Assembly: GCA_033584155.1 (NCBI GenBank)
Contig: CP138355.1
Span: forward strand, 3,667,826 to 3,731,825
Origin: Candidatus Electrothrix scaldis
Lineage (GTDB): Bacteria > Desulfobacterota > Desulfobulbia > Desulfobulbales > Desulfobulbaceae
Reading direction: 5' to 3'
Length of the DNA: 64,000 nucleotides
Shown here: positions 47,895 to 64,000 of the stretch, in pieces
Numbering within the stretch: position 1 is the stretch's first letter
Layout: every line of letters begins with the position of its first letter
Translations under genes and position numbers: made by a program
Notes under the pieces: model-generated
What the model was told of the DNA's origin: nothing
What the model saw: the letters and a program-made list of their open reading frames with translations, nothing else
The model's database searches: none

Positions 47895-49106
47895 ATGAGC
47901 GATCCCAAGCAAGAGAGCAAGTTTGAGGTGAATAAAACCTACGCGGAAATCAACGCCCGTATTAAGGCGGGAGAGGCTGTTGTTGTCACAGCAGATGAGA
48001 TGGTTGATATTGTCCGGCAGGAAGGCCCTGTTGAGGCTGCCCGCCGCATCGATGTAGTCACCACAGGAACCTTCTCCACCATGTGTTCCTCAGGCGTATT
48101 TCTGAACTTTGGTCAAACCAATCCAACCATCAAGGCGCAAAAAGTCTGGATCAACAAGGTCTCTGCCTATGCCGGTATAGCAGCAATAGATGCTTATATC
48201 GGGGCGACTGAACCAGCCGAGGGTGACCCGCTGAACCAGGTCTATCCTGGTGAATTCCGCTACGGTGGAGGGCATGTCATTGAAGACTTGGTAGCAGGCA
48301 AGGCAGTGCATCTGGAGGCCAAGGCCTATCCCACAGATTGCTACGCCAACACCAAGTGCAAAAAAGAAATCACCCTAGCAGAGATGCCCCATGCCCTGCT
48401 CTGCAATCCTCGTAATGCATACCAGAACTACAACTGTGCGGTTAATCTCTCCGATAAGATCGTCTATACTTATATGGGCACGCTGAAACCCAACTGCCGC
48501 AATGCCAACTATTGCAGTGCAGGCCAGCTCAGCCCTCTGCTGAATGATCCCCTCTATCGCACTATCGGTATCGGCACCCGCATTTTTCTTGGCGGCGGTG
48601 TGGGCTATGTAACCTTTCAGGGAACCCAACATAACCCAGGAGCTCCACGAGGTGACAACGGAGTCCCTACCCGGCCAGCTGGCACTATCATGGTTCAGGG
48701 AGATCTCAAAAAAATGTCGCCAGATTGGCTGCGAGGTGTAAGTCTACGAGGTTATGGGACCTCACTTGCCGTCGGACTGGGAATCCCTATTCCCATCCTC
48801 AACGAGGAGATGGCTCGCTTCACTGGAGTCTCAGACGAAGAGATCTTTACCCATGTGGTTGATTACGGGCACGATTATACCAACGGCATTGCCCGTCACT
48901 ACGGCAAGGTCAGCTATGCCCAGCTCAGGAGCGGCGAGATAGAGGTAGCAGGTAAAAAAGTACCAACCTCCCCTCTTTCTTCCTTACCAGGAGCACGCAA
49001 GGTTGCCGAGACCCTTAAAGAGTGGATTGAGGCGGGCAAATTCCATCTCGGCGAGCCAGTGGATTATTTTCCTACGGCTGATTTTTCCTTTAACCCGGAA
49101 AAATAA
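47895..49106 (+). CDS. DUF39 homocysteine-biosynthesis protein (aspartate-semialdehyde sulfurtransferase)
   Basis: 403 residues matching the DUF39 (HcyS-A) family, which builds homocysteine by putting sulfur onto aspartate semialdehyde in methanogens and sulfate reducers. Seen: TTGTFSTMCSSGVFLNFGQT with a conserved Cys pocket, YGGGHVIEDLVAGKAVHLEA, CKKEITLAEM, and LGGGVGYVTFQGTQHNPG. The C-terminal ferredoxin/NIL partner found in the Methanosarcina system is not fused here nor adjacent. AGAGGG precedes the ATG. A LarE-type sulfur transferase gene follows after 6 nt, so both sulfur-handling genes are likely in one operon. Confidence 0.88.
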   Translation: MSDPKQESKFEVNKTYAEINARIKAGEAVVVTADEMVDIVRQEGPVEAARRIDVVTTGTFSTMCSSGVFLNFGQTNPTIKAQKVWINKVSAYAGIAAIDAYIGATEPAEGDPLNQVYPGEFRYGGGHVIEDLVAGKAVHLEAKAYPTDCYANTKCKKEITLAEMPHALLCNPRNAYQNYNCAVNLSDKIVYTYMGTLKPNCRNANYCSAGQLSPLLNDPLYRTIGIGTRIFLGGGVGYVTFQGTQHNPGAPRGDNGVPTRPAGTIMVQGDLKKMSPDWLRGVSLRGYGTSLAVGLGIPIPILNEEMARFTGVSDEEIFTHVVDYGHDYTNGIARHYGKVSYAQLRSGEIEVAGKKVPTSPLSSLPGARKVAETLKEWIEAGKFHLGEPVDYFPTADFSFNPEK

Positions 49107-49112
49107 CCTGCC

Positions 49113-49922
49113 TTGCCAGCAAGCAAACTCAAACAACTCCGTCGTCACCTTTCCCGCTTTGATCGGGTAGGCGTAGCCTTTTCCGGCGGAGTTGATTCCT
49201 CGTTTCTTTTGCGTATGACCCTTGAAGTTCTGGGTTCGCATAGGGTTCTGGTCCTCCATGCCCGCTCCTGCCTCCAGAGCAAACAGGAACAGGAGGATGT
49301 TCTTACCTGGGCCAGTCAGCAAGGGTATCCGGCAGCAGCAATGCAGTTGCGGCTTATCGAAACCAACCCGCTAACCTGGAAGGATTTCACAGCCAACCCG
49401 GAAAACCGCTGTTACCTCTGCAAAAAACACCTCTACAACCTCTTTCTAAAGACTCTAGAGGAAGAAGACATAAGCATCCTCCTGGACGGCACCAATGCAG
49501 ACGATCTTCGCCAAGGAGAGGACGGGAGACCAGGACTACAGGCAATTAAGGAGCTTGGCATCCATACTCCTTTGGCAGCTTGTGGCCTAACCAAAGAAGA
49601 GATCCGCAACCACAGCAGAGCTTTGAACCTGCATACCGCTGACCGACCATCCTCTTCCTGCCTTGCCACTAGAATTCCTCATGGCATACAGATTACCCCT
49701 CAACGCCTGCAAAAAATCGAGGACTTGGAGCAGGCTCTGGCTCAGGAGGGATTGACAGGCTGTCGTGTGCGCCTGGATGCAAATACGGAAGATACTGTTT
49801 TCGTCCAGTTACAGCAGAGTAACCTTGGACAAATCCACAGTGATTCCCTTAAAAAACGATTTGTCATCCCCTTGAAAAAGAAAGGCGTTCACAAGATTTA
49901 TCTTGACGTAGAAGGACGTTGA
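49113..49922 (+). CDS. larE: LarE-type ATP-dependent sulfur transferase
   Basis: 269 residues from a TTG start 6 nt after the DUF39 gene; no strong ribosome site, so translational coupling is likely. PP-loop SGGVDSS (24-30) for adenylation, NRCYLC (C100, C103), LLDGTNADD, and RPSSSCLATRIP with C183 at the position of the sacrificial/catalytic Cys. The three-Cys set resembles LarE versions that use an iron-sulfur cluster to hold sulfur. LarE supplies sulfur to the nickel-pincer cofactor of lactate racemase; larA, larB and larC are not in the window. Here it may serve the DUF39 protein. Terminator follows. Confidence 0.88.
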   Translation: MPASKLKQLRRHLSRFDRVGVAFSGGVDSSFLLRMTLEVLGSHRVLVLHARSCLQSKQEQEDVLTWASQQGYPAAAMQLRLIETNPLTWKDFTANPENRCYLCKKHLYNLFLKTLEEEDISILLDGTNADDLRQGEDGRPGLQAIKELGIHTPLAACGLTKEEIRNHSRALNLHTADRPSSSCLATRIPHGIQITPQRLQKIEDLEQALAQEGLTGCRVRLDANTEDTVFVQLQQSNLGQIHSDSLKKRFVIPLKKKGVHKIYLDVEGR

Positions 49923-49967
49923 CAGATACTAAACTATCCGGTTTAATAGCGGCTGTTGAAGATATCC

Positions 49968-49991
49968 CTCCTCAATACTGAGGAGTTTTTT
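49968..49991 (+). terminator. Rho-independent terminator after larE
   Basis: A 7-bp perfect stem CTCCTCA/TGAGGAG with loop ATAC, followed by TTTTTT (49986-49991). It ends the DUF39-larE operon and is followed at once by the HU promoter. Confidence 0.88.
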
Positions 49992-49993
49992 CT

Positions 49994-50021
49994 TTGACAA
50001 AATGATATCACATTATGTAAT
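49994..50021 (+). promoter_or_regulatory. Sigma-70-type promoter of the HU gene
   Basis: TTGACA at 49994-49999 matches the -35 consensus and TGTAAT at 50016-50021 is a good -10 at 16-bp spacing, about 84 bases before the HU start codon. Confidence 0.6.
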
Positions 50022-50104
50022 CTCACATACCGAATAAAGCGATATAAAGCTTGTATTCAGGGCCAGCTACTGAAATTCGTACTATAAAAGAGAGGAAAGG
50101 GAGA

Positions 50105-50377
50105 ATGAATAAAAAAGAATTAGTTGAGGCTATGGCCGGGGCAGCTGACATTAGCAAATCAGCAGCAGAAAAAGCACTCAATAGCATGCTGATGAGCATT
50201 ACTGAGGCCCTTTCCGAAGGTGACAAAGTCACGCTGGTCGGATTCGGTACTTTTTCTACTGCTAACCGTGCTGCACGACAGGCAAAAAATCCCCAAACAG
50301 GGGCTGTTATGGAAATTCCCGCTAAGACTGTCGCGAAATTCAAGCCGGGTAGCAAACTCTCCGAGGCTGTAAAATAA
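50105..50377 (+). CDS. hup: HU-family DNA-binding protein
   Basis: 90 residues from ATG 50105 (GGGAGA upstream); an open frame 18 codons longer is not HU-like. MNKKELVEAMAGAADISKSA forms the dimerisation helices, VTLVGFGTFSTANRAAR is the conserved core, and the beta-arm has RQAKNPQTGAVMEIP with the DNA-intercalating Pro in the NPxTG region. HU dimers bend and compact DNA. Monocistronic, between the larE terminator and tRNA-Pro. Confidence 0.95.
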   Translation: MNKKELVEAMAGAADISKSAAEKALNSMLMSITEALSEGDKVTLVGFGTFSTANRAARQAKNPQTGAVMEIPAKTVAKFKPGSKLSEAVK

Positions 50378-50512
50378 GACTGGCAAAAGCGCCTCAAGTT
50401 TTTTCAATTTCAGTATACTTTAACCTTGCCAGTAAAAGCGAATCGGATTATAAACAGCCTGTTTTTTTGTAACAGGAAAAACTGATACGCTAGGTAACAT
50501 ATAATTCGATGT

Positions 50513-50589
50513 CGGGAAGTGGCTCAGTCTGGTAGAGCACAGCGTTCGGGACGCTGGGGTCGGAGGTTCGAATCCTCTCTTCCCGACCA
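50513..50589 (+). tRNA. tRNA-Pro (anticodon CGG)
   Basis: 77 bases including the encoded CCA end. Acceptor stem CGGGAAG/CTTCCCG, D-arm stem GCTC/GAGC with GG in the loop, anticodon arm CAGCG-TTCGGGA-CGCTG giving anticodon CGG at 50559-50561... read as loop bases three to five, and T-arm with TTCGAAT. All four arms pair normally with one G-U at the end of the T stem, so it should be functional. Confidence 0.97.
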
Positions 50590-50753
50590 TTGATTTTGAG
50601 TAAAAATGAGAGGTTTCGTTCTGTAGAATATACAAGAACGAAACCTTTTTTTTTGTCAGCGCATCACGTAGAAGCAACAGCCTCTGCGTCCAAAATCTTA
50701 GATCCCATCCATATTGAACGCAATCCAATCTCAGCCATACAAATAAAAAGAAT

Positions 50754-51821
50754 ATGAAGAAAACAGTATTAGTTACTGGCGGTTGCGGATTTATCGGCGC
50801 AAACTTTGTTCGCCTTCTTCTTGAAACACGTGCAGACTGGCGAGTTATTAATCTTGATAAACTCACCTACGCCGGAAATTTACAGAATCTTGACGGGGTA
50901 AGCGAGCACCCAAACTACCGCTTTGTTCGTGGTGACATTTGTGACCAACCTCTTTTAGACACCCTGTTTGAGGAGGAACGAATCGACACGGTGGTTCACT
51001 TTGCTGCTGAATCCCATGTTGACCGCTCTATCACCGGGCCAGCCGAATTTATCAGAACAAACATCACCGGCACCTTTACCCTGCTTGAGGCGGCAAAAAA
51101 AAGCTGGCTGGACAACGACGCGCCAAATGAGGCATGCCGATTTCTCCACGTCAGCACGGATGAGGTCTACGGCTCCTTGGGAGCAACGGGTTTCTTTACC
51201 GAGCAAACGCCGTACGATCCCCGCTCCCCTTATTCTTCTTCCAAGGCATCCTCGGACCATCTGGTACGTGCCTATTTTCACACCTACGGCCTGCCCATTC
51301 TTATAACTAATTGCTCCAATAATTACGGCCCTTATCAATTCCCGGAAAAACTGATTCCCCTCATGCTCAATAACGGGCAACAAGGGAAGACGCTTCCTGT
51401 GTACGGAGACGGTGGCAATGTCCGCGACTGGCTCTATGTCCAGGATCACTGCGAAGCAATTGTTCGTGTTGTTGAACAGGGCCAATTGGGAGAGTCATAT
51501 AATATAGGGGGCCATAACGAGAAAAATAATCTCCAGGTTGTTGAGCTCCTTTGTGACATGCTTGACGAAAAGCTGGGACTGCTTCCCTCTGGAAAGGCGA
51601 GGCGTTCTTTAATTACCTTTGTCAAAGATCGCCTGGGCCATGACCGCCGCTATGCCATTGATGCAGATAAAATAGATCGAGAGTTAGGTTGGACCCCAAA
51701 ATATACTTTTGAGCAGGGCATTGAAAAGACAGTCACCTGGTACCTGAAAAATCGAGCCTGGATGGATTCGATTATTGACGGCTCCTATCAGAAATATTAT
51801 GCCAAAATGTACGGCAAGTAA
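50754..51821 (+). CDS. rfbB: dTDP-glucose 4,6-dehydratase
   Basis: 355 residues. NAD-binding [22 protein letters not shown], catalytic [10 protein letters not shown] and [11 protein letters not shown] (YxxxK), and [18 protein letters not shown] are all characteristic of RmlB. It converts dTDP-glucose to dTDP-4-keto-6-deoxyglucose, the entry to dTDP-rhamnose and other deoxysugars. rfbC follows after 36 bases; rfbA and rfbD are not in the window, so the pathway must be completed elsewhere. It could feed the nearby pilin-glycosylation candidates or the glycan cluster. Confidence 0.95.
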
Positions 51822-51857
51822 GCACAGACCATTACCTACTGATACAACAGCACATTC

Positions 51858-52400
51858 ATGAAAATACAATCAGCATCTATCCCGGACGTCCTTATCATTG
51901 AGCCCCAAGTCTTCGGCGATGAGCGGGGCTTTTTTTTAGAAAGCTTCAATCAGCGCCGCTGGCAGGAAGCAACTGGACTGCAAACAACTTTTGTTCAGCA
52001 TAATCACTCTGCTTCTGGCAAAAATGTTCTGCGCGGACTTCATTACCAAATTCAGCAACCACAGGGCAAATTGGTCCGGGTTATTGCGGGCGAGGTCTTT
52101 GATGTAGCGGTGGACCTCCGTAAAGAATCCCCCACCTTTGGCCAATGGGTTGGGGAATATCTTTCTGCTGAAAACAAAAAGCAATTTTGGGTTCCCGAAG
52201 GTTTTGCGCACGGCTTTCTCGTTCTTTCAGAAAGGGCGGAATTTCTCTATTTAGCAACAAAGTATTATGCTCCGGAGCACGAACGTTCGATCATCTGGAA
52301 CGACCCAGATCTCAATATCACATGGCCCGTCCAGGGAGAGCCCTGCCTCTCTAAAAAAGACAGGGCAGCCTGTTCCTTTCAGGAGGCAGATTATTATTAA
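51858..52400 (+). CDS. rfbC: dTDP-4-dehydrorhamnose 3,5-epimerase
   Basis: 180 residues, normal length. GDERGFFLESFNQRRW, FVQHNHSASGKNVLRGLHYQ with catalytic His region, VDLRKESPTFGQW, and VPEGFAHGFLVLS are family hallmarks. It epimerises C3 and C5 of dTDP-4-keto-6-deoxyglucose on the way to dTDP-L-rhamnose. In operon with rfbB. Confidence 0.94.
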   Translation: MKIQSASIPDVLIIEPQVFGDERGFFLESFNQRRWQEATGLQTTFVQHNHSASGKNVLRGLHYQIQQPQGKLVRVIAGEVFDVAVDLRKESPTFGQWVGEYLSAENKKQFWVPEGFAHGFLVLSERAEFLYLATKYYAPEHERSIIWNDPDLNITWPVQGEPCLSKKDRAACSFQEADYY

Positions 52401-52649
52401 TTGCCCCTCAATGTCGTACTGACATTTTTTGTCAGCTACCGTGGCAGATTTTGTCTTCGAAACATGAGGAAAGCATAGCTTAAATATACCGCTCCCTATA
52501 GACTCTCCGTAACCTCCCATTCTTAAGAAAGAAAAAAAAACATACTCCTTCAAGAGATCCTGGCACAGATAATGTATTATAAGAGGCAAAGAATACATGT
52601 CGGCACGGGTCGATATCCAAAAACTTCTATCCTGAAAATGGAGGACATC

Positions 52650-53123
52650 ATGAAACTGAATAACTTGAGAAAACAAGCAAACGAGAAAGGTTTTACCTTG
52701 ATCGAGCTGATGATCGTTATTGCGATTATTGGTATTCTGGCAGCTGTTGCTATCCCTAACTTCATTGAGTACAAGAATAAGTCCTATTGTACTGCGACAA
52801 TCAACGATGTAAATGCCGTCGGTGGTGCCTTGGCGGACTATTTCGCCAATCCTATGAATACAACAGCATCAACTGAATACAATAAAGCAGAGGGCAATGC
52901 CCGTCCGTTTATACTGGTTGGTAATTACGAAACGGGTAGTTATTCTGCAAACACCCTGCTCCTGTCCGCCTCAACAACCGGCGCATCTGCAGTAAAAGAT
53001 GGGTCAAACTATCTCATTTCAGCAACTGAAGGTGCTGCAAACTGCCCGCAGAAAGTCTGGAGCTCCGACAGTCACTGGAGCCAAAATGATGAGGGTGGCT
53101 TGGATTTCGTCAAAACGCTGTAA
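52650..53123 (+). CDS. pilA: Type IV pilin / pseudopilin (PilA-like)
   Basis: 157 residues from ATG 52650, set by GGAGG six bases upstream; the frame is open 26 codons further without pilin character. A 14-residue leader ends KG, followed by F15 of the mature protein and [20 protein letters not shown] with Glu at mature position 5, the prepilin-peptidase site. The mature chain has about 143 residues with two Cys only (C47 and C132 of the precursor), the usual disulfide of a pilin D-region, and many Ser/Thr residues. It is a full-length pilin rather than the short Geobacter conductive type. Followed by a terminator and glycosylation-type genes. Confidence 0.93.
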
Positions 53124-53150
53124 TTCAAGATTTGATACAAAGAAAACATT

Positions 53151-53179
53151 AAGCCTGCTGAAAAGCAGGCTTATTTTTT
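53151..53179 (+). terminator. Rho-independent terminator between pilA and the TMTC-like genes
   Basis: A 9-bp perfect stem AAGCCTGCT/AGCAGGCTT with a GAAA tetraloop, then ATTTTTT. The T run ends at 53179, one base before the ATG of the next gene. The gene would thus depend on read-through from pilA or on a promoter inside pilA; this arrangement often sets high pilin and low downstream expression. Confidence 0.9.
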
Positions 53180-55249
53180 ATGTCGTCCCTCTATTCAAAA
53201 GAGCATGTTTTTCGACTAAGCTTGTTGTTTTGTTTCTGCCTGCTTATTTACTCCGATATTTTCAATAACGGCTGGCATCTTGATGATTCAGGTAATATCC
53301 TGAACAATACACCGCTTCATATAACTGATCTCAATCTCGACACACTTTTCAACACTTTCTACGCCCACCCGGAAGAAACAGGCAGACTCTATCGACCGGT
53401 TGCTAATTTCACGTTCGCCCTTAACTGGTTTTTCGGACAGGATAGTCCTGTCGGTTATCATCTCGTCGATATTTTTATTCACGGCCTCACGGCGATCATG
53501 CTCTTTTTCTGCTCCTCCCTACTTCTGAGCACGCCTGCGCTCAAGCAACATCAACGTACACAAACACAAAAAAATGACATAGCCTTGCTTACGGCTGCTC
53601 TTTGGCTGGCCGCCCCTATTCATACCTCGGCAGTGACCTATATTGTCCAGCGCATGGCTCAACTTGCAGCCTTATTTTCTATTGGTGCCATTTTTTTCTA
53701 TCTCTCTGCAAGATTATCTCACAGGCGATTACACCAAGCTTTATTTTTCTGCAGTTTTTTTTGCTGCGCCCTGCTCGCCTTGGGCAGCAAAGAAAATGCT
53801 GCTCTTCTTTTTCCTTCACTTGCTCTTATTGAAGGAATTTTCTTTTTCCAATTTGCAAGAATCCAAAAATTTGCGTTCCAGAAAAAAAAACTTTTTCTGC
53901 TGATTTCCCTCTTATTTTCAGGTGGAATATTTTTCCTTAGCTGGGATTTTATTATTGCCCAAGCCAATAGCTACGGGCATAGAAATTTCACATTTCATGA
54001 GCGCATCTTGACCGAGCCGCGTATACTGCTTTTTTATCTCTCCCAAATTTTTTATCCAACTGCTTCGCGGCTTTCCATTGCTCACGATATAACTTTATCA
54101 TCCTCGCTCTTTACCCCTTGGCAAACCGTGCCAGCTATTTTATCCTGTATGGCATTAATGGTTTTAGCCATCGTGCAAATTAATAAAAGACCTCTGTTCT
54201 CCTTTGCTATTTTATATTATTTTCTTAACCATCTTGTGGAATCAACGATTATACCTTTAGAGCTTATTTTCGAACACAGAAACCTCCTTCCATCGCTCTT
54301 TCTCTTTCTCCCTCTTGCGGCATTCGCTGTTGATATAATCAATACCAAAACATGGAGAATAATTATAACAGCGCTCACCTGCTCTTTCTTTTTAATCCAA
54401 TCTGGTCAGGCCACGATAGAACGCAACAAGACCTGGAAAAATGAAGGGACATTAAACAAAGATGCCCTTAAAAAAGCCCCAGGTAGCGCACGGGTGAAAC
54501 TCAACTTGGCTGGATGGTATGCGGGCCTAAAAAAATATCAAGAAGCTTTGAACCTTTGTGAAGAGGCAGAACAGTTCGAGAAAAACGATGCATCCCGAAA
54601 CACAATCATTCCCATCGCCCGTATGCAAAAAGGCACCATTACCTACCAGCTCGGGCAGCCGGAAAAGGCTCTGGAGTATTTTCGACAGGCATATTCTCTT
54701 CGTAAAGACTACACAGCAGCAGCTGAAAAACTTATCGCCGTACTTATCGAGCTGGAACGATATGATGAGGCTCTTGATATTATAGCAGAACGATACAAAA
54801 AGACAAACGACTCCAAACTGTTCCTGCTTAAAGCATCTGTTCTTTTACGTCAAAAAAAAGCGGGTGAAGCTCTTGCCTGTTATCGCCGGGCCGAACCTTT
54901 TTACCCTAACCTTCCTTTGATTACAGCAGGCATCGGAAAAGCTCTCATCCTACAGGGAAATCATAGCGAGGCGACATTACTGTTCACCAGAGCAGTTCAA
55001 CAACAAGAGCCCATAGTCAAGCTACTCTTAATTGAAAACAACCTTCTTTCCGGAAAAAAACAAGAAGCATCCGCTCAACTGAATGAGCTTATCCGCACGG
55101 TTCCCCTGGTCAGATTGCTGAATGATCTTAATGCGCCCCGAAAAGATCCTTTTCAAATACCCGTAAATACCCCCTTACTTCGACGAGCAATCCTACATAA
55201 TGCTTCCCTGATGATATCCAGCTCCACATTAAAAGAAACAACCCTATGA
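53180..55249 (+). CDS. TMTC-like membrane protein with C-terminal TPRs (first copy)
   Basis: 689 residues. The first ~400 hold about ten to eleven membrane spans with GWHLDDSGNILNNTPLH in the first periplasmic loop; the DD pair is the expected metal/catalytic site of GT-C protein O-mannosyltransferase-like enzymes (TMTC/PMT type). Other shared phrases are FALNWFFGQDSPVGYHLVD, VQRMAQLA, GSKENA and FEHRNLLPSLFLFLPLA. The last ~270 residues are TPR units. It overlaps the next gene by 4 nt. Likely a glycosyltransferase acting on exported protein, with pilin as an obvious candidate; substrate not shown. Confidence 0.75.
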   Translation: MSSLYSKEHVFRLSLLFCFCLLIYSDIFNNGWHLDDSGNILNNTPLHITDLNLDTLFNTFYAHPEETGRLYRPVANFTFALNWFFGQDSPVGYHLVDIFIHGLTAIMLFFCSSLLLSTPALKQHQRTQTQKNDIALLTAALWLAAPIHTSAVTYIVQRMAQLAALFSIGAIFFYLSARLSHRRLHQALFFCSFFCCALLALGSKENAALLFPSLALIEGIFFFQFARIQKFAFQKKKLFLLISLLFSGGIFFLSWDFIIAQANSYGHRNFTFHERILTEPRILLFYLSQIFYPTASRLSIAHDITLSSSLFTPWQTVPAILSCMALMVLAIVQINKRPLFSFAILYYFLNHLVESTIIPLELIFEHRNLLPSLFLFLPLAAFAVDIINTKTWRIIITALTCSFFLIQSGQATIERNKTWKNEGTLNKDALKKAPGSARVKLNLAGWYAGLKKYQEALNLCEEAEQFEKNDASRNTIIPIARMQKGTITYQLGQPEKALEYFRQAYSLRKDYTAAAEKLIAVLIELERYDEALDIIAERYKKTNDSKLFLLKASVLLRQKKAGEALACYRRAEPFYPNLPLITAGIGKALILQGNHSEATLLFTRAVQQQEPIVKLLLIENNLLSGKKQEASAQLNELIRTVPLVRLLNDLNAPRKDPFQIPVNTPLLRRAILHNASLMISSSTLKETTL

Positions 55250-57339
55250 GTAAAGAGCCATATATTAAGCAGCCGACACTCTATATACTCCTCTTTCTTC
55301 TGCTGCTTGTTGCCTATATCCAGTCATTCAATGGGGAATGGCACTATGATGATTTCCCGAATATTCTGGAAAACACTCCGTTACACCTGACAGAGTTAAC
55401 ACTGACCACCCTGAAAGGGACCTTTTTTGCCTATCCGGGCAAAGAAGGTACCCTGCTTCGTCCTGTCAGCAACCTTACCTTTGCCTTGAACTGGTTTTTT
55501 CATCAGGATAGCGTAGTTGGCTATCACTTGGTTAATTTTTTTATTCATTTTTTGACAGCTGTATTTTTATATAAATCCTGCTTACTGATACTTTTTTCAC
55601 CCAAAATTCAGCTAAAAGCTCATAAAAACGCTTCTCTTATCGCCTTGCTCGCGACCCTCTTCTGGGCACTGAACCCCATCCAGGTTCAAGCGGTTTCCTA
55701 TATTGTCCAGAGAATGGCTTGCCTGGCAACGTTCTTTACCATTCTCGGCATATGGTCCTATCTTCAGGCCAGGATGACACGACCTGCTCAGAGAAGGAAA
55801 CAGGTAATCTATTATTGCTCAACTCTTATCTCTTTTTTACTCGCCTTGGGATCCAAAGAGAATGCTGTCCTGTTTCCCGGCTCCATTGTCCTCATTGAAT
55901 TTTTTATCCTTCGTGAGGATGTCAGGCTGACCAAGCAAAGCCTCCTGATTCTTTCTGCAGGTTTCCTGTTTATCCTAGGATGCACTTTAGCGCTAGCTGG
56001 TCCAAAAATTTTTCTCAGTATATTTGATAGCTATACGGGAAGAAGTTTTACCCCTTTCCAACGTTTACTGACTCAGTCCAGAATTGTTACTTTTTATCTG
56101 AGCCAAATTTTTTTTCCTGCCCCATCACGTCTCTCGCTAACCCATGATGTTCACCTCTCAACCTCTTTATTTTTCCCTTTCACAACACTTTCCTCGATAG
56201 TTTTCCTGACTCTGCTCGTCATATTTTCTTTTCGTTATCATAAAAAGCAGCCGCTTCTTTCCTTTGCAATCCTTTTCTTTCTTTTTAACCATACAGTAGA
56301 GTCCTCTTTTCTTAATCTGGAAATTATTTTTGAACACCGTAATTACCTCCCCTCACTTTTTTTATTCCTCCCTCTTGCCGCATTGCTCGGAAGAAGCATA
56401 CATCACTATCAACAAAGCAACAGATTGATATTTTTGTTTCTCTCAGCAGGAGCGTCTCTTCTGGTTTTGCTTTTCCTTGTCGGAACGTTTGAGCGCAATA
56501 AAGCTTGGTTGACGGAACGAAGCTTATGGGAGGACTCTTTAAAAAAAGCACCGGGTCACAGCCGTTCGTATGTTAATCTCGCTCACGGGTATTACCAAAG
56601 GGATAACAACGATAATAATAAAAAAGCCTTTGAGCTATACTGGCAGTCTTTGGATAAATATGCGCCCAATCCCTGGAAAGCCAGACTGGCGGCATACGGG
56701 AGTTTGGGGTATATTATGTTTCGCTATGGAAAATATGAAAAAGCATTGAAGTTTTATGATCAGGCTTTGTCTGTCGCAAAAGATAAACCCTATGGAAATC
56801 TAACAGCTGGAATTTTATCTGATAAAGCAAATACCCTATGGATAGCCGGAAAAAAACAGGAGGCACTGAACCTTATCAGCGGTCTTGCCCAAGCTAGACC
56901 TAAGAAGGGCGTATATCTCCAACAGTATGGTGAAATGCTCATAGGAATGAACCGTCTTGCTGAGGGAATGATAATTTTACGTCACGTTATCTCAGAGTTT
57001 CCTATGACAAGTACTGAGTACAGAAAAGCCCTGCTTGATTTTGCCCTTATCTACGCAAGATTAGATTCTATGAAAAAATCTTCTTTCTATATGCGATTAG
57101 CAGACCGACTCGGCGTACCCGTCGTGCCCAGCTCACTCTGCTTTATTGAGGCAAGCTTGCTGGCAGGGAAAAAAGAAAAAACAGGGCAAGCGATGCAGCA
57201 TATTCTTTATAAAATAACTTGGGCAGAGTTAATTGCCATTTTAGAAGAACGTTCACCTAATACGCCGATACTCCCTCTTAACTACCCATATCTTCTTCAA
57301 TATGCCGAAGAGTGGCTTACAGAACAAAAAACGCCATAA
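55246..57339 (+). CDS. TMTC-like membrane protein with C-terminal TPRs (second copy)
   Basis: 697 residues, paralogue of the preceding gene over its whole length: GEWHYDDFPNILENTPLHLT (DD pair kept), FALNWFFHQDSVVGYHLVN, VQRMACLA, GSKENAVLFPGS and FEHRNYLPSLFLFLPLA. C-terminal TPR region about 420-690. The two copies share the core but differ in TPRs, which suggests different protein targets or a heterodimer. Begins with an ATGA overlap. The VKOR-DsbA gene follows after 36 bases. Confidence 0.75.
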   Translation: MSKEPYIKQPTLYILLFLLLLVAYIQSFNGEWHYDDFPNILENTPLHLTELTLTTLKGTFFAYPGKEGTLLRPVSNLTFALNWFFHQDSVVGYHLVNFFIHFLTAVFLYKSCLLILFSPKIQLKAHKNASLIALLATLFWALNPIQVQAVSYIVQRMACLATFFTILGIWSYLQARMTRPAQRRKQVIYYCSTLISFLLALGSKENAVLFPGSIVLIEFFILREDVRLTKQSLLILSAGFLFILGCTLALAGPKIFLSIFDSYTGRSFTPFQRLLTQSRIVTFYLSQIFFPAPSRLSLTHDVHLSTSLFFPFTTLSSIVFLTLLVIFSFRYHKKQPLLSFAILFFLFNHTVESSFLNLEIIFEHRNYLPSLFLFLPLAALLGRSIHHYQQSNRLIFLFLSAGASLLVLLFLVGTFERNKAWLTERSLWEDSLKKAPGHSRSYVNLAHGYYQRDNNDNNKKAFELYWQSLDKYAPNPWKARLAAYGSLGYIMFRYGKYEKALKFYDQALSVAKDKPYGNLTAGILSDKANTLWIAGKKQEALNLISGLAQARPKKGVYLQQYGEMLIGMNRLAEGMIILRHVISEFPMTSTEYRKALLDFALIYARLDSMKKSSFYMRLADRLGVPVVPSSLCFIEASLLAGKKEKTGQAMQHILYKITWAELIAILEERSPNTPILPLNYPYLLQYAEEWLTEQKTP

Positions 57340-57375
57340 AAAAAACCACATCAGCCAACACTAGGTAGATAAAAA

Positions 57376-58548
57376 GTGAGCGCTATGACCATGAAGCAAA
57401 AAACACTTCCTTATCGCGTCTACACCATTCCGATACTTATTCTGGCTGCCCTTGGTATTGCGGCCTCAGCCTATCTCGGTCTTTCCCATTACCGCAACTA
57501 TACAGACATCGGTTACAGCAGTTTCTGTGCCATCTCTCAGGCCATCAATTGCGATACCGTTTCTCAAAGCCCTTGGTCTATCCTGCTGGGAATACCGGTG
57601 GCACTCTGGGGTGTTCTCGGGTATACCCTCTTTTTTATTTTGAGTCTGCCAGCCCAGATCAACACAGAAGAACGCAGAGGCCTCTGGGACCTACTCTTCC
57701 TCATCGCCCTGCTCTTCTCCCTTATCGATCTTTTCTTCGGCTACATAACCGCAGTAAAGATAGAATCGTACTGCATAGTATGTCTTTTTACCTATGCGGT
57801 AAGTTTTACCCTCCTTTTCCAAACCTGGATTATCCGGCAACGGTTTAACAGACATTCTCTGCTCACTGGAATCCAGAGTAGCCTGCACTTTCTTGTTCGG
57901 CAAAAAAGCATTATGATTCCCCTTGTCATCCTTGTGCTTGTTTTTGGAGCGTGCCGAATCGTTATGCCCACCTACTGGGAATACAAATATCCACCATTAT
58001 CAAAAGACATTGCCAGAGGAGTCACAGAAGAGGGCCATCCCTGGATCGGTGCCGAGAATCCCACACTCATCATTAAAGAATTTACAGACTATCAATGCTT
58101 CCAGTGCAGTAAGGTCCACTTCTTTTTACGGCAGCTTGTTGATAAATATTCCGACAAAATCCGTTTAGTCCATTACCATTACCCGATGGACGAAAAATTC
58201 AACACTGTGCTGGTCAAAGAGCCATTTCATACTGGTTCGGGAGATCTGGCCTTACTGACCATAGCTGCTGCTCGCCAGGGTAAATTCTGGGAGGCTAATG
58301 ATGCTCTGTATACTGTGATCCGGCACGGCATTGCTGCCTTTAATATCCAAAAATTTGCAGAAAAACTCCAGCTTGATCCAAAACAGCTCAAAAAGGATAT
58401 GTATTCGGAAACTACACTCAAACAGGTGGAATCCGATATCCGTACAGGTCTGAAAAATAATATCGTCGGCACCCCGTCTTTCATTGTCGATGGTAAAGTC
58501 TACGCAGGGCGCCTCCCCAATGAAATTATGGACATCATCAAAGAATAA
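57376..58548 (+). CDS. VKOR-DsbA fusion, disulfide-bond-forming membrane protein
   Basis: 390 residues; start GTG 57376, or ATG at 57385 or 57391. Residues about 15-160 form a four-helix VKOR domain with loop Cys C51 and C59 and the quinone-proximal CIVC (C133, C136). A fifth span (about 180-197) leads to a periplasmic thioredoxin-fold domain with CFQC (C241, C244) and the cis-Pro segment VGTPSFIVDG. VKOR oxidises the DsbA part using quinone, so one protein makes disulfides in exported proteins. It is placed directly downstream of a pilin with a Cys pair. Confidence 0.9.
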   Translation: MSAMTMKQKTLPYRVYTIPILILAALGIAASAYLGLSHYRNYTDIGYSSFCAISQAINCDTVSQSPWSILLGIPVALWGVLGYTLFFILSLPAQINTEERRGLWDLLFLIALLFSLIDLFFGYITAVKIESYCIVCLFTYAVSFTLLFQTWIIRQRFNRHSLLTGIQSSLHFLVRQKSIMIPLVILVLVFGACRIVMPTYWEYKYPPLSKDIARGVTEEGHPWIGAENPTLIIKEFTDYQCFQCSKVHFFLRQLVDKYSDKIRLVHYHYPMDEKFNTVLVKEPFHTGSGDLALLTIAAARQGKFWEANDALYTVIRHGIAAFNIQKFAEKLQLDPKQLKKDMYSETTLKQVESDIRTGLKNNIVGTPSFIVDGKVYAGRLPNEIMDIIKE

Positions 58549-58554
58549 TAGCTT

Positions 58555-60279
58555 TTGTACACTGTAACCACAAAAAAACCGGGTGGTCATACGTTCATCG
58601 GGGTGTTGCTTGCGGGCCTGGTGCTCAGCCTGGTTCTGCTGGCCTGCACCCCGCCCTTCAGCCGCGATGCCCTTATCCATCATCTCCAGCTCCCTAAACT
58701 CTACCTCCAGCATGGAGGAATCTACGAAATTCCAGAGCTGATTTTCTCTTATTACCCCATAAACCTCGACCTCCTGTACGTGGGGGCACTTTCTCTTGGC
58801 AGTGATATACTGGCCAAATACATCCATATGTTGTTCGGGTTCGGTACAGCTCTGCTTCTCTATCTCCATCTGAGAAAACGATTATCCAGCACCTATGGGA
58901 TACTGGGGGCCTTGTTTTTTCTCAGCATCCCAATCATCGTTAAGCTCTCTATCACGGTATATGTGGATCTCGGGCTTGTTTTTTTCACCACAGCCTCTCT
59001 GCTCCTGCTCTTCCGCTGGCTGGAAACAAAACGACGGCGTGATTTGCTGCTGGCGGGCATCTGTTGCGGCTTAGGGATCGGGACAAAATACAACGGCCTA
59101 CTGGTACTGTTTATTCTTACCTTTATCCTACCAATTCTGTTCATCAGAACCCAGGAGCAAAAACAAGGCGCTACTCGTCCGGCAATAAAGGCCGCTACCC
59201 TGCTCTGCTTTGCCGCCATACTCGCTGTCTCGCCGTTGCTGATCAGGAATACTATCTGGACCGGCAATCCCCTCTATCCACTCTATAACGGTTTCTTCAA
59301 TCCAACAGCTTCTCCGGCACCGGCAGAGCACCAAGTCAAAGAAAACGAAGAAAGCAATGCTGAGCGAGTCAGCAGCGGTGCTCGGGGAGTTTTTGCCAGA
59401 AGATATGTGCTCTACCAGGAAAGCGTCTTACAGCTTCTTCTTCTTCCTGTACGAATTTTCTTTGAGGGTCGTGACAATGATCCCCGCTATTTTGACGGTC
59501 GACTCAATCCCTTTCTCCTTTTCCTCCCGCTCCTCAGCTTCCTGGGAATACGACAGGACAAAAAACAGGTTCTGCTCGAAAAATTCACTCTTACAGCCTT
59601 TTCCCTCTTCTATTTCCTCTTCGCATTTAATACTGGGGTGTTGCGTGTTCGCTACCTCACGCCGATGGTTCCCTTTCTGGTGATTCTTTCCATGTACGGT
59701 TTGAAAAACCTGGGGGGCTTAGCTGAGCAATACACAAATAAAATCCGTTTCGCCAAACTTGCCGCCCCCCTAACCATAACCCTCTTGCTGCTCTGGAATG
59801 GCAGCTATCTTTGGCAGCAATTTGAGGAAGTCGATCCACTCAGCTATGTTACGGGTCGTATAAGCCGGGATGAATACCTTACCCAAAAGATCCCGGAATA
59901 TCCGGTCATGCAATACGCAAATAAAAATCTCCCGGATTCTGCCAAAATACTCTGTCTTTTTCTAGGATCACGGGGATATTACCTCGACAAAAAACATATT
60001 TTTGATTCTTACGGGAATCACAACCTCCTGCTTTCCTGGCTCCAGCAACCGGAGAGCAGCCTCGATACTGTTCTCCACAATCTTCAGGAACAAAAAATAA
60101 GCCACCTTCTTGTCCGTGCTGATCTCATGGTGCAATGGCTGAATACAGCGAAAAAGCCCTCTCGGGAACTCTGGAATCAGCTCAACAGCAATCATTTGAT
60201 TGCGGTGCATACGCATCTCAACTATATTCTTTTTCAAGTCAATTTTTCCTCTGCCCTTCCAACAGCCCAGATGCCATAA
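58555..60279 (+). CDS. GT-C-like membrane glycosyltransferase candidate
   Basis: 574 residues starting at TTG 58555, six bases after the VKOR-DsbA stop. About ten spans; the first periplasmic loop reads CTPPFSRDALIHHLQLPKLY, with the Asp and His pattern of ArnT-like proteins, and later GIGTKYNGL and SPLLIRNTIWTGNPLYPLYN. The C-terminal ~110 residues are periplasmic and soluble. Probably transfers sugar from a polyprenyl-phosphate carrier; acceptor unknown. Its stop overlaps the GspF/PilC start by one base. Confidence 0.7.
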   Translation: MYTVTTKKPGGHTFIGVLLAGLVLSLVLLACTPPFSRDALIHHLQLPKLYLQHGGIYEIPELIFSYYPINLDLLYVGALSLGSDILAKYIHMLFGFGTALLLYLHLRKRLSSTYGILGALFFLSIPIIVKLSITVYVDLGLVFFTTASLLLLFRWLETKRRRDLLLAGICCGLGIGTKYNGLLVLFILTFILPILFIRTQEQKQGATRPAIKAATLLCFAAILAVSPLLIRNTIWTGNPLYPLYNGFFNPTASPAPAEHQVKENEESNAERVSSGARGVFARRYVLYQESVLQLLLLPVRIFFEGRDNDPRYFDGRLNPFLLFLPLLSFLGIRQDKKQVLLEKFTLTAFSLFYFLFAFNTGVLRVRYLTPMVPFLVILSMYGLKNLGGLAEQYTNKIRFAKLAAPLTITLLLLWNGSYLWQQFEEVDPLSYVTGRISRDEYLTQKIPEYPVMQYANKNLPDSAKILCLFLGSRGYYLDKKHIFDSYGNHNLLLSWLQQPESSLDTVLHNLQEQKISHLLVRADLMVQWLNTAKKPSRELWNQLNSNHLIAVHTHLNYILFQVNFSSALPTAQMP

Positions 60280-61517
60280 TGCCTGTTTACGAATATACCG
60301 CCCTGAATGCCCAGGGAAAAAAACATAAAGGAGTTTTGGATGCCGACTCTATGTCGGCAGCCCGCCAAAAAATCCGTAAGGACGGCAGCTATCCGGTTGA
60401 GATTAAAGAAACCGCTCCACGGGGGCGAAGAAGAAGAAAAGAGGCTGATAAAAAAAACGTTCTCTCCCTCCAGCTCGGCACAAGAATAAAGCAGCAGGAA
60501 ATTCATGTTGCGACCCGCCAGTTGGCCACCCTGTTGGGGGCCGGTATTCCTCTGGTGCCAGCCCTGAGTGGACTTGTTGAGCAGACCAGCAATAAAGCGC
60601 TGCAAACCAAGATCACCCAGATTAAGGATTCGGTAAACGAAGGAAACTCTCTTTCTTCCTCTCTGGCTGAACATCCCCGCCTTTTTTCTAAGATCTATAT
60701 CAACATGGTCCAGGCCGGTGAGGCCTCGGGCTCCCTGGATGTGGTCCTGGAGCGGCTGGCTGAAGTGGGCGAAAGCCAACAGGCCATGCGTTCACGAATT
60801 GCTGCTGCTCTCATCTACCCAATTTTCATGGCCCTGGTCGGGGTCGGGGTTCTGTTTCTTCTTATCACCTTTATTGTCCCCTCAATCACCAAGGTCTTTA
60901 CTGACCGTAACCAAGCCCTGCCCCTGCCCACAACCCTCCTGATCAGCCTCAGCGACTTTCTCCAAAGCTACTGGGTGGTCCTGGTTGTTCTGGCCTTTGG
61001 CCTTATTATTGGCCTCCGTCTTTTTATTCAACAACCCAAGGGACAGAGGATATGGGACACCCTAAAGCTCTCCTTTCCGGTGATCAAAGATCTGAACATA
61101 AAAATGGCCGCAGCCACTCTGGGGCGGACCATGTCCAGTCTCCTGCACTCCGGTGTTCCCCTGATCACCTCTTTGGGGATTGTCAAAAACATCCTTAATA
61201 ATGTCCTGTTAGCTGATGTTATGGATCTGGCAGCTGAAGAGTTAGAAAAGGGGAAAAGCCTGTCCAGCGTCCTGCGCGGCAATAAGTACTTCACGCCCAT
61301 GCTGGTCCAGATGATTGCCGTAGGTGAACAGAGTGGCTCGCTGGAAAAGATGTTGGAAAAGGCGGCGGATAGCTATGAAAAGGAAGTGGAAACCAAGGTC
61401 ATGGCTATGACCTCAATGATTGAGCCTGTCATGATCCTGGTTATGGGTCTGGCAGTGAGTTTTATTGTTGTTTCTATCCTTTTGCCGATCTTTGAGATGA
61501 ACCAGTTGATTAAGTAA
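60279..61517 (+). CDS. gspF: Type II secretion / type IV pilus inner-membrane platform protein (GspF/PilC)
   Basis: 412 residues from ATG 60279 (TAATG overlap); a longer frame upstream is inside the previous gene. MPVYEYTALNAQGKKHKGVL is the standard GspF opening. Two T2SSF domains follow (about 80-200 and 285-405), with RQLATLLGAGIPLVPALSGL, FSKIYINMVQAGEASGSLD, and the repeat form TLGRTMSSLLHSGVPLI and MIAVGEQSGSLEKML; three membrane spans near 180, 230 and 385. The protein is the platform on which pilin or pseudopilin subunits are assembled. The N-terminal features favour GspF over PilC. No ATPase or secretin gene is adjacent. Confidence 0.9.
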   Translation: MPVYEYTALNAQGKKHKGVLDADSMSAARQKIRKDGSYPVEIKETAPRGRRRRKEADKKNVLSLQLGTRIKQQEIHVATRQLATLLGAGIPLVPALSGLVEQTSNKALQTKITQIKDSVNEGNSLSSSLAEHPRLFSKIYINMVQAGEASGSLDVVLERLAEVGESQQAMRSRIAAALIYPIFMALVGVGVLFLLITFIVPSITKVFTDRNQALPLPTTLLISLSDFLQSYWVVLVVLAFGLIIGLRLFIQQPKGQRIWDTLKLSFPVIKDLNIKMAAATLGRTMSSLLHSGVPLITSLGIVKNILNNVLLADVMDLAAEELEKGKSLSSVLRGNKYFTPMLVQMIAVGEQSGSLEKMLEKAADSYEKEVETKVMAMTSMIEPVMILVMGLAVSFIVVSILLPIFEMNQLIK

Positions 61518-61562
61518 ATCGGCTGGCCGATACCAATGAGGTGAACGTAAACAAAAGGGAAA

Positions 61563-61596
61563 GGGTCGCTAGCATATCAGCTGGCGGCCCTTTTTT
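61563..61596 (+). terminator. Rho-independent terminator after gspF
   Basis: An 11-bp stem (GGGTCGCTAGC with AGCTGGCGGCCC-type partner, two G-U pairs) and a short loop, followed by TTTTTT at 61591-61596. It closes the pilin-locus transcript. Confidence 0.85.
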
Positions 61597-61793
61597 GTGC
61601 CCTATCAAAAGGCAAGATGTTCAGAAAATCCCCTCTTCATAGGGTAATTAACCGCAAAGGATTTGTTCCTCATCAAATCGGAAGCGGTCGTTGACACTCC
61701 CTTCTCCTTCAAAATCAAAATGGAACTGATTAGGCCAGGCTTTCCAGCCTTCGGAATTATAGATCCCGGAATAGTATTCAGCGTTAGTAGCAG

Positions 61794-62006
61794 TTATTGG
61801 TTATTTTCCTGGTATTCAAGAATGTCCCCTGGTTGACATTTTAGGTGCTTACATAAAGCATCCAACGTTGAGATACGAATAGCCTTAGCTTTTCCTGTTT
61901 TTAATATTGATAGATTCTGTTCTGTGATTCCGATCAGTTTTGCAAGTTCAATAGACTTCATTTTGCGCATTGCCAGAACCACATCTATGTTTATAACTAT
62001 AGACAT
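61794..62006 (-). CDS. Small XRE-type transcription regulator
   Basis: 70 residues, a single Cro/C1 helix-turn-helix (MKSIELAKLIGITEQNLSIL) with KAIRISTLDALCKHLKCQPG as the following helices. It resembles YozG, the regulator regularly paired with DUF2975 membrane proteins, and the adjacent upstream gene is exactly such a protein. It probably represses the pair. AT-rich, with no relation to the pilus genes. Confidence 0.88.
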   Translation of the reverse strand: MSIVINIDVVLAMRKMKSIELAKLIGITEQNLSILKTGKAKAIRISTLDALCKHLKCQPGDILEYQENNQ

Positions 62007-62020
62007 ATTAATAACTCCGG

Positions 62021-62563
62021 CTAAACGGTTAAACGTTGTTCTTCAGTTAATATACGGCCTTCATCCATTACCCACGCTATAACAAAAACAATCCCAGCAA
62101 CAACAAGTGTAGTAATTTCTGGTGAACTGAAACCTACATTGATAATTCTTTGTCCTGGAGGGTTTCCCAGTGAAAACAGGACGCTTTTGGCAGATTCATA
62201 CAATATTGACAAGAAAACCCAACCAATAAGGGCTTTTGAGGTTTTTTTGAAAATAGCGACATGTTCAAAGGAAAATATCACACCCTCTTTGTAAAAGGAA
62301 AAGAGCTTCCTGATATTTATAAGTCCGTAAACTAATGCAGATAGAGGGAGCAAGCTTACAACAAACCCTATTAACTGAAATTTAATTGACAAATGATTTT
62401 GAACTAATGGAACCGAGGCAACATTTTTGGTGATTAATGTCTCTGGCAAACTATTTATAAAGGCCCAGTAGATGACGTAATACAACGGTATAGCAACTAA
62501 TAACGCAGAAATTAGCAAGTGAAAATTATTACTGAGTTTCTTGATTTTTGGTAAATTGCTCAT
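62021..62563 (-). CDS. DUF2975 membrane protein
   Basis: 180 residues from ATG 62563, selected by AGGAGG eight bases upstream; 16 further codons are open. Four membrane spans (about 17-37, 65-90, 110-130, 150-170), with LIGFVVSLLPLSALVYGLIN and the family's basic loop NIRKLFSFYKEGVIFSFE. Together with the XRE protein 14 nt downstream it forms the common two-gene YoaS/YozG-type unit of unknown function. Confidence 0.85.
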   Translation of the reverse strand: MSNLPKIKKLSNNFHLLISALLVAIPLYYVIYWAFINSLPETLITKNVASVPLVQNHLSIKFQLIGFVVSLLPLSALVYGLINIRKLFSFYKEGVIFSFEHVAIFKKTSKALIGWVFLSILYESAKSVLFSLGNPPGQRIINVGFSSPEITTLVVAGIVFVIAWVMDEGRILTEEQRLTV

Positions 62564-62941
62564 GGTAGTACCTCCTGTTAATTTTTTTGTTAGTCCACAC
62601 CATATCAACATGATTATTGCTTTGCAATAAAATATTATCGCAAAACGATAATATTTTATTCTGTCACAAATTATTTGGTTTACTAACAGGATATCAAACA
62701 GGTAAACATGGAAAACTGAGTCGTCAAAAAGTAATTAAAAATAAGGTTGTTACAAAATAATCCCTAAAAACTTCGTTATGTGCGGAATGTCGGTTAAATG
62801 AAAAGTAAACAGGAAATCGCTACAAATAGGACAAATGTATACACTCCGGTATCACAGCCCAAAATCAGACCGCGCAACCATGCAAGTTGCAGAGTGGGGT
62901 TGAAGGTTCGAATCCTACAGTGACGGGACAAAAAAAAGAAT
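62564..62941. other. AT-rich intergenic region with a tRNA-like remnant
   Basis: About 380 bases with no supported gene. At 62874-62890 there is a 5-bp stem with a 7-base loop (GCAAC-CATGCAA-GTTGC) like an anticodon arm, and at 62902-62918 a T-arm-like sequence (GAAGGTTCGAATCCTAC, one mismatch). The acceptor and D arms do not pair, so it is not a working tRNA. Upstream, the start of the DUF2975 gene has an AATATTATCG/CGATAATATT inverted repeat near 62630-62655, possibly the XRE operator. Confidence 0.4.
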
Positions 62942-63442
62942 CTACGAAGTGAGTTCAAGAAAAAATAGTTGTTCTATAAGAGAGGCTCCCCAATAGCTAA
63001 CTTCCCTTTCTTCGCATTTTGAAAAGCCGTAACCTAAATAAAGCCTCTTCGCTTGAGATAGATTATCAAATGTCCATAGCTCTATTTTCTGATAACCTGA
63101 AAATTTACAAAAATTTAAAGCATTAGTTAAAAGCTCTCCTCCGATCCCTTGACATTGATAACGAAAATCAACAATAAAAACTCGAATTCTGGCACAAGAT
63201 GGGAATCCTTCATGACTATCGACAGCAATTGAACCGATAATTACATTGTTTCTCTTTGCAACCCATAAGGAATCCTTTTTCTTATCAAACCTAGATGAAA
63301 AATTTTCAAGATAGCTTTTGACATCGTTCTTAAATTTTTCTCCCCATCCCAGGTTACAGACAAAAAAAAGTTCATGAAGAGTGGTTATCTGATCAATAAC
63401 ACCATGTGTATTAGGAAAGGTATGAATGACTTCTATATCCAT
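62942..63442 (-). CDS. GNAT-family N-acetyltransferase
   Basis: 166 residues, single GNAT domain. Acetyl-CoA-binding motif A is RYQCQGIGGELLTNAL (matching RxxGxG/A with Cys in place), preceded by the beta strand ARIRVFIVDF and followed by KIELWTFDNLSQAKRLYLGYGF (motif B). Substrate unknown. AT-rich and flanked on both sides by T-arm-like remnants, so probably acquired. Confidence 0.85.
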   Translation of the reverse strand: MDIEVIHTFPNTHGVIDQITTLHELFFVCNLGWGEKFKNDVKSYLENFSSRFDKKKDSLWVAKRNNVIIGSIAVDSHEGFPSCARIRVFIVDFRYQCQGIGGELLTNALNFCKFSGYQKIELWTFDNLSQAKRLYLGYGFSKCEEREVSYWGASLIEQLFFLELTS

Positions 63443-63535
63443 ATGTAATTATCGTTTTCCTCTTTATTCTCTAAAATAGAATAAAACATAACCCGTAATA
63501 TTGTTAAGATTAACCCGTTACGTTATTATTACATG

Positions 63536-63560
63536 GCATGCAAGGTTCGAGCCCTAGAGA
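63536..63560. other. T-arm-like sequence beyond the GNAT gene
   Basis: CAAGGTTCGAGCCCTAG at about 63541-63557 has the same layout and the same mismatch as the T-arm-like piece at 62902-62918 and shares AAGGTTCGA and CCTA with it. It may be the second boundary of an inserted segment or chance. Confidence 0.3.
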
Positions 63561-63687
63561 CAAAGCAAAAGAAAACCAGGCCACGCGCTCAGCACGGACC
63601 TGGTAACGTAGCCATAACAATAAATAGTCAAAACAGCATTGCTTACAGTATCAAGTCAACATACTAACTTGTAACCACTCTTTTTGT

Positions 63688-64000
63688 TCAAGACGATTTA
63701 TCTTTAGAGGAAGAGCTTATCTCAACCCTTGTCAAGGATACATTCAAAGGCTCACTAACCCCAGACCTTTCAATCGAGAGAGCAGCTTGAGAGCCTACCT
63801 TTCCTCTGAGTTTTTCCATTATCAAATACTTAAATGAGTTGTCTTGTGTCGCCTCTCCGTCAATATGCGTGATAACATCACCTTTCTGCACACCACTTGT
63901 CTCAGCTGGCATCTCACTTAATACATCAAGAACAACTAGCGGTCCCATATGTGTTTTTAAAGCCGGGTCATATAGCTGAGCTACTTTCAGGCCAAGACCA
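63688..64000 (-). CDS. PDZ-domain protein, N-terminal part outside the window
   Basis: The frame is open to the window edge (63949-64000 continues as GLGLKVAQLYDPALKTH), so the ATG at 63946-63948 is internal. The visible 104 residues form a C-terminal PDZ domain: GLGLKVAQL is the carboxylate-binding loop region, then VLDVLSEMPAETSGVQKGDVITHIDGEATQ and SQAALSIERSG, ending in a Ser/Lys tail (EISSSSKDKSS). Such domains end HtrA-type proteases or GspC-like proteins; the rest is not visible. Confidence 0.75.
   Translation of the reverse strand, partial: GLGLKVAQLYDPALKTHMGPLVVLDVLSEMPAETSGVQKGDVITHIDGEATQDNSFKYLIMEKLRGKVGSQAALSIERSGVSEPLNVSLTRVEISSSSKDKSS

Follow-up and report, generated by a model that had tools for sequence, protein, structure and literature searches.

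Introduction

In the TfpO/TfpW cassettes of Pseudomonas aeruginosa, a glycosyltransferase gene directly follows that of the major pilin, each pilin group has its own accessory gene, and the two genes are separated by a Rho-independent terminator, a proposed means of attenuating accessory expression and keeping stoichiometry (PMC11841053, in the sections available); according to a title cited in that source, TfpW is a GT-C enzyme. Herein, we describe a locus of comparable gene arrangement in the cable bacterium Candidatus Electrothrix scaldis, where the type IV pilin gene pilA precedes two genes for TMTC-like membrane proteins with tetratricopeptide repeats (TPRs; tmtcA and tmtcB), a VKOR-DsbA fusion gene (vkor), a further GT-C glycosyltransferase gene (gtc), and a gspF homologue. 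The locus lies in a stretch of 64,000 nucleotides (the window), at positions 3,667,826-3,731,825 within one 5.09-Mb contig (CP138355.1). It is probably a pilin-accessory modification locus, with glycosylation of the pilin; the glycosylation and the identity of the sugar are what we infer. For the more far-reaching proposal we see an even chance, i.e., that TMTC-like proteins are bacterial pilin O-glycosyltransferases, that the cable-bacterium pilin and its two transferases constitute a swappable allele, that a variable sugar cassette lies between tmtcB and vkor, and that the result is a strain-specific, recombining glycan coat on a fibre protein expressed at a high level.

Eukaryotic TMTC1-4 are O-mannosyltransferases (CAZy GT105) in which the GT-C membrane half is followed by a long C-terminal region (PMC6801728, in the sections available). 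The window proteins likewise join a GT-C membrane half to C-terminal TPR repeats, and differ from TMTC1-4 in having no match to Pfam TMTC_DUF1736 and a pilin as putative substrate. Their conserved Asp-Asp (DD) motif presumably corresponds to that of the eukaryotic TMTCs. The same cluster was described for Ca. Electrothrix in 2023, in a paper that we take to be by Geelhoed et al. In its accessible parts (PMC10580974), that paper lists two sugar-modifying enzymes, PilA, and TPR proteins taken as interaction proteins, treats the pilin together with the Electronema aureum proteome (its function being given as unknown), and describes no allele swap; among the titles listed for cable-bacterium or Electrothrix pilins, it was the only one found for this cluster. 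In Actinomyces oris, pilus proteins need the thiol-disulfide oxidoreductase MdbA, the oxidation of which depends on the electron transport chain (PMC5478893, in the sections available). Compared by description, the present locus would likewise couple a pilus protein to a disulfide-forming enzyme, A. oris pili being, unlike those considered here, sortase-built and Gram-positive.

Gene content and conservation of the locus

The window and its surroundings in the same genome (G000) were compared with the sister genome (G059) and with further relatives. The features are as follows (window coordinates).

50754..51821, + strand: upstream flank, rfbB-like dTDP-glucose 4,6-dehydratase gene, named by resemblance (Pfam epimerase/dehydratase families; 99% identical in G059)
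51858..52400, + strand: upstream flank, rfbC, dTDP-4-dehydrorhamnose 3,5-epimerase family (Pfam, 249 bits)
52650..53123, + strand: pilA, type IV pilin of 157 residues (N_methyl, 40 bits; Cys pair)
53150..53173, + strand: Rho-independent-terminator-like hairpin in the pilA-tmtcA gap (10-bp stem, 4-nt loop, then six T)
53180..55249, + strand: tmtcA, GT-C-fold membrane domain (about residues 1-445) and TPR domain, conserved D35 and D36
55246..57339, + strand: tmtcB, diverged tmtcA paralogue (35% identical over the alignment)
52889..57388, no strand: allele block divergent from G059 (57-79% identity per 250-base step; flanks about 97%)
57376..58548, + strand: vkor, VKOR-DsbA fusion (VKOR, 96.4 bits, with Thioredoxin_4 and DSBA; catalytic Cys invariant in 19 sequences)
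58555..60279, + strand: gtc, ArnT/PMT-like GT-C glycosyltransferase (PMT/PMT_2, about 47 bits)
60279..61517, + strand: downstream flank, gspF, probable type II secretion system (T2SS) platform protein (T2SSF, 210 bits)

A survey of the open reading frames (ORFs) of the window places all six genes in one order on the plus strand, as the preliminary description of this DNA had it, and family scans agree with its labels for the pilin (N_methyl), the VKOR-DsbA protein (VKOR/DSBA) and the GT-C-like protein (PMT/PMT_2), as well as on the presence of a T2SSF-family protein. Its account of the spacing, as overlaps of 1-4 nt or gaps under 40 nt, holds at four junctions (tmtcA/tmtcB overlap, 4 nt; gtc/gspF overlap, 1 nt; tmtcB-vkor gap, 36 nt; vkor-gtc gap, 6 nt) and fails between pilA and tmtcA, which are separated by 56 nt containing the hairpin.

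Some match to TMTC-A is present in 61 of 73 family genomes, many being weak and to the TPR part. Loci were examined in 26 other family genomes chosen from the stronger matches (G068, G069 and G072, also strong, were left out), with ORFs called mechanically; a label rests on a BLAST match to a window protein, on membership of a single-linkage cluster or on the N-terminus as read. In 21 of these 26, as in the window, the gene immediately 5' of a TMTC-like gene is pilA, on the same strand (G008 and G010 having a short opposite-strand ORF called in between), which mirrors the P. aeruginosa position of the accessory gene directly 3' of the pilin gene; in 15 of 26, vkor is the first gene to follow the TMTC-like gene or genes, with two remnant ORFs intervening in G059. 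A second, overlapping set comprised 79 named loci, the best hits among the matches listed, whose carriers include Desulfobulbus, Desulfosarcina, Desulfofustis, Smithella and Syntrophaceae. There, a pilin gene lies at most 3 ORFs from the TMTC-like gene at 60 loci (39 on the same strand) and, within 6 ORFs, vkor is found at 25, gtc at 25 and a GspF/PilC-like gene at 15. The proportions in the two sets argue that the linkage of pilA to TMTC-like genes is not due to chance. Thus, in the synteny comparison that the preliminary description had proposed, pilin, GT-C-fold enzymes and disulfide oxidase recur as a module, and its overall interpretation is mostly supported as to modification; the assembly role is not supported (see below). 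Unlike the P. aeruginosa cassettes, the module occurs in another phylum, encodes enzymes combining GT-C with TPR in one or two TMTC-like genes, and often includes a VKOR-DsbA protein together with a GT-C enzyme of a different type.

At six loci (L109, L123, L125, L126, L131 and L133), the TMTC-like gene and the pilin gene are on opposite strands, the pilin has 0-1 Cys, a GspF/PilC-like gene is close by, and vkor was not seen. In Electronema (L039) and several relatives, pilA is adjoined by minor-pilin-like genes and by a sensor/regulator-like pair, which are found about 175 kb from pilA in the window's genome (G000:C1:3545-3551 kb; L170); PilS/PilR and T2SS letters were assigned by reading, except for T2SSE-family and N_methyl matches.

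TMTC-like proteins and the third GT-C enzyme

Structure comparison of the membrane part of TMTC-A reveals a GT-C fold over residues 1-445, and a Pfam scan detects TPR repeats in both TMTC-A and TMTC-B. D35 and D36, located shortly after helix 4-23 of TMTC-A in a putative first periplasmic loop, are present in 30 of 30 TMTC-like proteins chosen irrespective of the DD motif, as well as in 75 of 75 members of a second set that was itself screened for DD, a screen that dropped 1 of 83. TPR_1 is matched by 30 of 30 members (E of 0.1 or better). The TMTC-like label is thus sustained by architecture and fold; at the level of families it is not, as Pfam PF08409 (TMTC_DUF1736) is matched above cut-off in 0 of 71 genomes (10 weak sub-cut-off matches at E<=0.1, none in G000). 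With TMTC-A alone, the listed Foldseek matches were filled by TPR proteins; no TMTC structure was among the structure matches listed, and comparison with a viral structure library gave no lead. The preliminary description regarded a tandem pair of TMTC-like genes as non-standard, yet such pairs recur outside the cable bacteria (L069, L071); Desulfobulbus rhabdoformis (L099), by contrast, carries a single TMTC-like gene there. A recent tmtcA/tmtcB duplication was considered and rejected, since each gene falls in its own clade in a quick tree.

Based on fold, acidic residues and linkage, TMTC-A and TMTC-B would transfer sugars from polyprenyl-phosphate donors, on the periplasmic side of the membrane, to Ser/Thr residues of the pilin, which the TPR domain would grip as substrate; the third GT-C enzyme would add or extend the glycan. 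We found no paper joining TMTC with bacterial, pilin, glycosyl and tetratricopeptide topics, none linking glycosylated pilins to GT-C enzymes, polyprenyl carriers and TfpW together, and none on glycosylation of Desulfobulbus type IV pilins.

The divergent allele

The finding of greatest interest here is the allele that joins the pilin to its transferases. Between window and sister genome, identity is 97.5% over 46,726-52,889 and 96.5% over 57,389-64,000; between about 52,750 and 57,250 it falls to 57-79% per 250-base step. (Towards the end of the stretch that was compared, the two sequences do not align up to about 46,725.) Differences at four-fold sites follow the same pattern, being low in the flanks (rfbB, 3.6%; rfbC, 10.0%; gtc, 4.3%; gspF, 5.2%) and high in the block (pilA, 35.8%; tmtcA, 52.8%; tmtcB, 64.7%); with 26.1%, vkor falls in between, which blurs the limit of the block on its right-hand side. 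Selection on the protein alone was rejected as the cause, the strong four-fold-site divergence being better accounted for by replacement with a divergent allele. The G059 tmtcB is 75% identical to the G063 copy versus 58% to that of the window, and the form present in G061 and G064 is even more remote (best local matches: pilA, 44-46%; tmtc, 34-46%; vkor, 42-43%) between rfbB/C (86-90%) and gspF (87-88%). By sequence comparison, the pilin and two of the sugar enzymes seem to have been exchanged together, as a single block, among close relatives, and this points to a variable coat on a fibre that is abundant. The genes tmtcA and tmtcB and the 3' portion of pilA would act as one matched allele exchanged between strains, probably under selection by phages or other surface selection.

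That pilA has diverged jointly with tmtcA and tmtcB while the flanks stayed conserved, and that pilins adjoin TMTC-like genes in many genera, weighs against an alternative in which the GT-C enzymes act on lipid-linked glycans or on other exported proteins, the pilin neighbour being incidental. In favour of this alternative, ArnT is a lipid A modifier, and the third GT-C enzyme, for which both fold and family profiles indicate a GT-C glycosyltransferase, has ArnT as its best fold match; in addition, the genome has one more TMTC-like gene, its third (G000:C1:2988092-2989747; L057), with no pilin neighbour. We regard this alternative as unlikely.

Sugar genes around the locus

The favoured reading, modification of the pilin by these enzymes, is supported by sugar-type genes located between tmtcB and vkor in other Electrothrix. 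The stretch from the TMTC-like genes to vkor spans about 8.5 kb in G063, 7.5 kb in G058 and 10.6 kb in G061. Pfam matches identify a DegT aminotransferase, a GT2 protein, a hexapeptide protein, an ACP synthase III and a methyltransferase in G063 (two proteins being unmatched), a GNAT acetyltransferase in G058, and a methyltransferase in G061, the only protein tested there. G059 retains aminotransferase remnants; the window has the 36-nt gap instead, and its genome carries a 57% identical aminotransferase elsewhere. A GT2-type protein cluster is represented within 6 ORFs at 31 of 109 loci, some of them duplicates, with Glycos_transf_2 confirmed for one member. The preliminary description had pointed to rfbB and rfbC as a possible deoxysugar source; both are indeed upstream in the window, and among the family loci examined they precede pilA only in the window's genus (in the named loci L091 and L094, rfbB/rfbC-like genes lie downstream). 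Beside vkor, G063 encodes a protein of about 600 residues with no Pfam match (L163:11105-12910), with N-terminus look-alikes in G058 (L164) and G060 (L167).

Such sugar-type genes around many loci, and the GT-C fold at residues 1-445 with its DD motif shortly after the first helix, weigh against the TPR membrane proteins being pilin assembly or docking factors devoid of glycosyltransferase activity, the sense in which the accessible parts of the 2023 paper (PMC10580974) read them; we consider this improbable, to nearly the same degree as the lipid-glycan alternative. If, instead, a dedicated and recombining enzyme set glycosylates and disulfide-bonds PilA, proteins described as TPR interaction factors would be reinterpreted as probable sugar transferases, providing a direct handle on fibre function, on phage pressure in cable bacteria, and on widespread pilin modification in sulfate reducers.

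The hairpin between pilA and tmtcA

The hairpin and its six T (53150-53179) end at the tmtcA ATG. Under a fixed rule, a hairpin is present in 26 of 42 pilin-tmtc gaps (dinucleotide-shuffle mean of 0.13 and maximum of 1 over 30 rounds), whereas the rule detects no hairpin in 11 tmtc-vkor gaps or in 4 vkor-gtc gaps; a hairpin also follows pilA in G059 and G060, and the stretch inspected in G063 yielded none. A terminator-like hairpin between pilin and accessory gene is thus a further likeness to the P. aeruginosa cassettes. Transcription of pilA would be high, with most transcripts ending at the hairpin and a minority reading through into the modifying genes. At 53174-53182, the putative tmtcA ATG comes directly after the T run, without a visible ribosome-binding site.

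Pilin cysteines and the VKOR-DsbA oxidase

The best start for pilA is 52650, with GGAGG immediately 5'. PilA has the prepilin leader (14 residues ending in G), N-methylation motif and E5 of a type IV pilin, the mature protein beginning FTLIELM, and its cysteines are C33 and C118. Both positions are invariant across 45 pilins, in which candidate acceptors are S/T34 (44 of 45) and S/T88 (41 of 45); as only pilins having exactly two Cys, along with a motif that contains K, were admitted to this set, the positions of the Cys are informative and their presence is not.

In VKOR-DsbA, all residues expected of a disulfide oxidase are present in the window protein and invariant in 19 of 19 sequences, namely the VKOR loop Cys pair (C51, C59), the VKOR CxxC (C133, C136), the DsbA CxxC (C241, C244) and the cis-Pro (P367, in a GTP motif). 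With these catalytic residues, the enzyme would form the C33-C118 disulfide of PilA and pass electrons to quinone. It is the sole VKOR match in the window's genome, and VKOR is matched above cut-off in 10 of 11 genomes searched. Half of the pilins near TMTC-like genes (30 of 60) belong to the C33/CP class, and vkor lies at most 6 ORFs away for 21 of these 30 versus 0 of the 30 others; conversely, all 21 loci with a nearby VKOR have a two-Cys pilin. When only those loci are kept that extend 3 kb or more downstream, or that show vkor, the counts are 21 of 24 versus 0 of 21; this subset retains every locus where VKOR was seen and so favours the rule, and its three exceptions are L108 and L122 (both Electrothrix, with vkor farther away or on another contig) and L091. 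The term 'vitamin K' is absent from the main text of the 2023 paper (PMC10580974), and no title about Desulfobacterota pilins was among those listed for VKOR, DsbA and pilin.

Several observations weigh against a dedicated pilin modification locus: (i) the pilin glycan is a prediction from sequence; (ii) the membrane halves of both window TMTC-like proteins have no Pfam match at E 0.1; (iii) pilA is not directly upstream in 5 of the 26 family genomes (G004, G045, G065, G067 and G070), and no pilin occurs within 3 ORFs at 19 of the 79 named loci listed; (iv) 16 of 42 pilin-tmtc gaps are without the hairpin; (v) the VKOR-Cys pattern is phylogenetically clumped, amounting to 2-3 independent pairs, nearly all in the expected direction with rare ties, and not significant; and (vi) vkor lies apart from tmtc in G060 (83 kb) and G064 (another contig). 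Furthermore, (vii) tmtcA appears split over several ORFs in G058:C82 (L041) and G060:C1 (L040), as is tmtcB in the latter, through real loss or assembly error; modification may accordingly be dispensable in these two genomes.

gspF and type II secretion

The gspF product passes the NCBIfam model for T2SS GspF (TIGR02120; 439.3 versus a 424-bit cut-off) and fails that for PilC (NF052606; 298 versus 700 bits). The genome has two T2SSF-family genes only, of which the other, although also below the NF052606 cut-off at 538, fits PilC models better; a T2SS-like cluster at 3.485-3.497 Mb has N_methyl proteins and a T2SSE ATPase, with no gspF among its ORFs. From these sequence features, the most likely role of gspF is in type II secretion, and the pilus-platform role given to it in the preliminary description was rejected. 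Together with the lack of gspF after gtc in the non-Electrothrix family loci examined, they render very remote the initial view of the six genes, gspF included, as a single synthesis-and-assembly unit for a dedicated fibre, despite tight packing, the retention of vkor-gtc-gspF in all seven Electrothrix examined (G000, G059, G063, G058, G060, G061 and G064; gtc split into two ORFs in G058), and GspF/PilC-like genes near the TMTC-like gene at 15 of the 79 named loci listed. These last neighbours, from other lineages, count against the reassignment to T2SS, and gspF-like genes may have had an older tie to pilus assembly; the sole such gene scored, that of L126, is below the cut-offs of both GspF and PilC models.

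Elsewhere in the window, a minus-strand gene run at 7155-19527 resembles, by reading, glycosyltransferases, membrane GT-C-like proteins and sugar epimerases, and ORFs with short repeated amino-acid units are present on both strands at 45331-46766.

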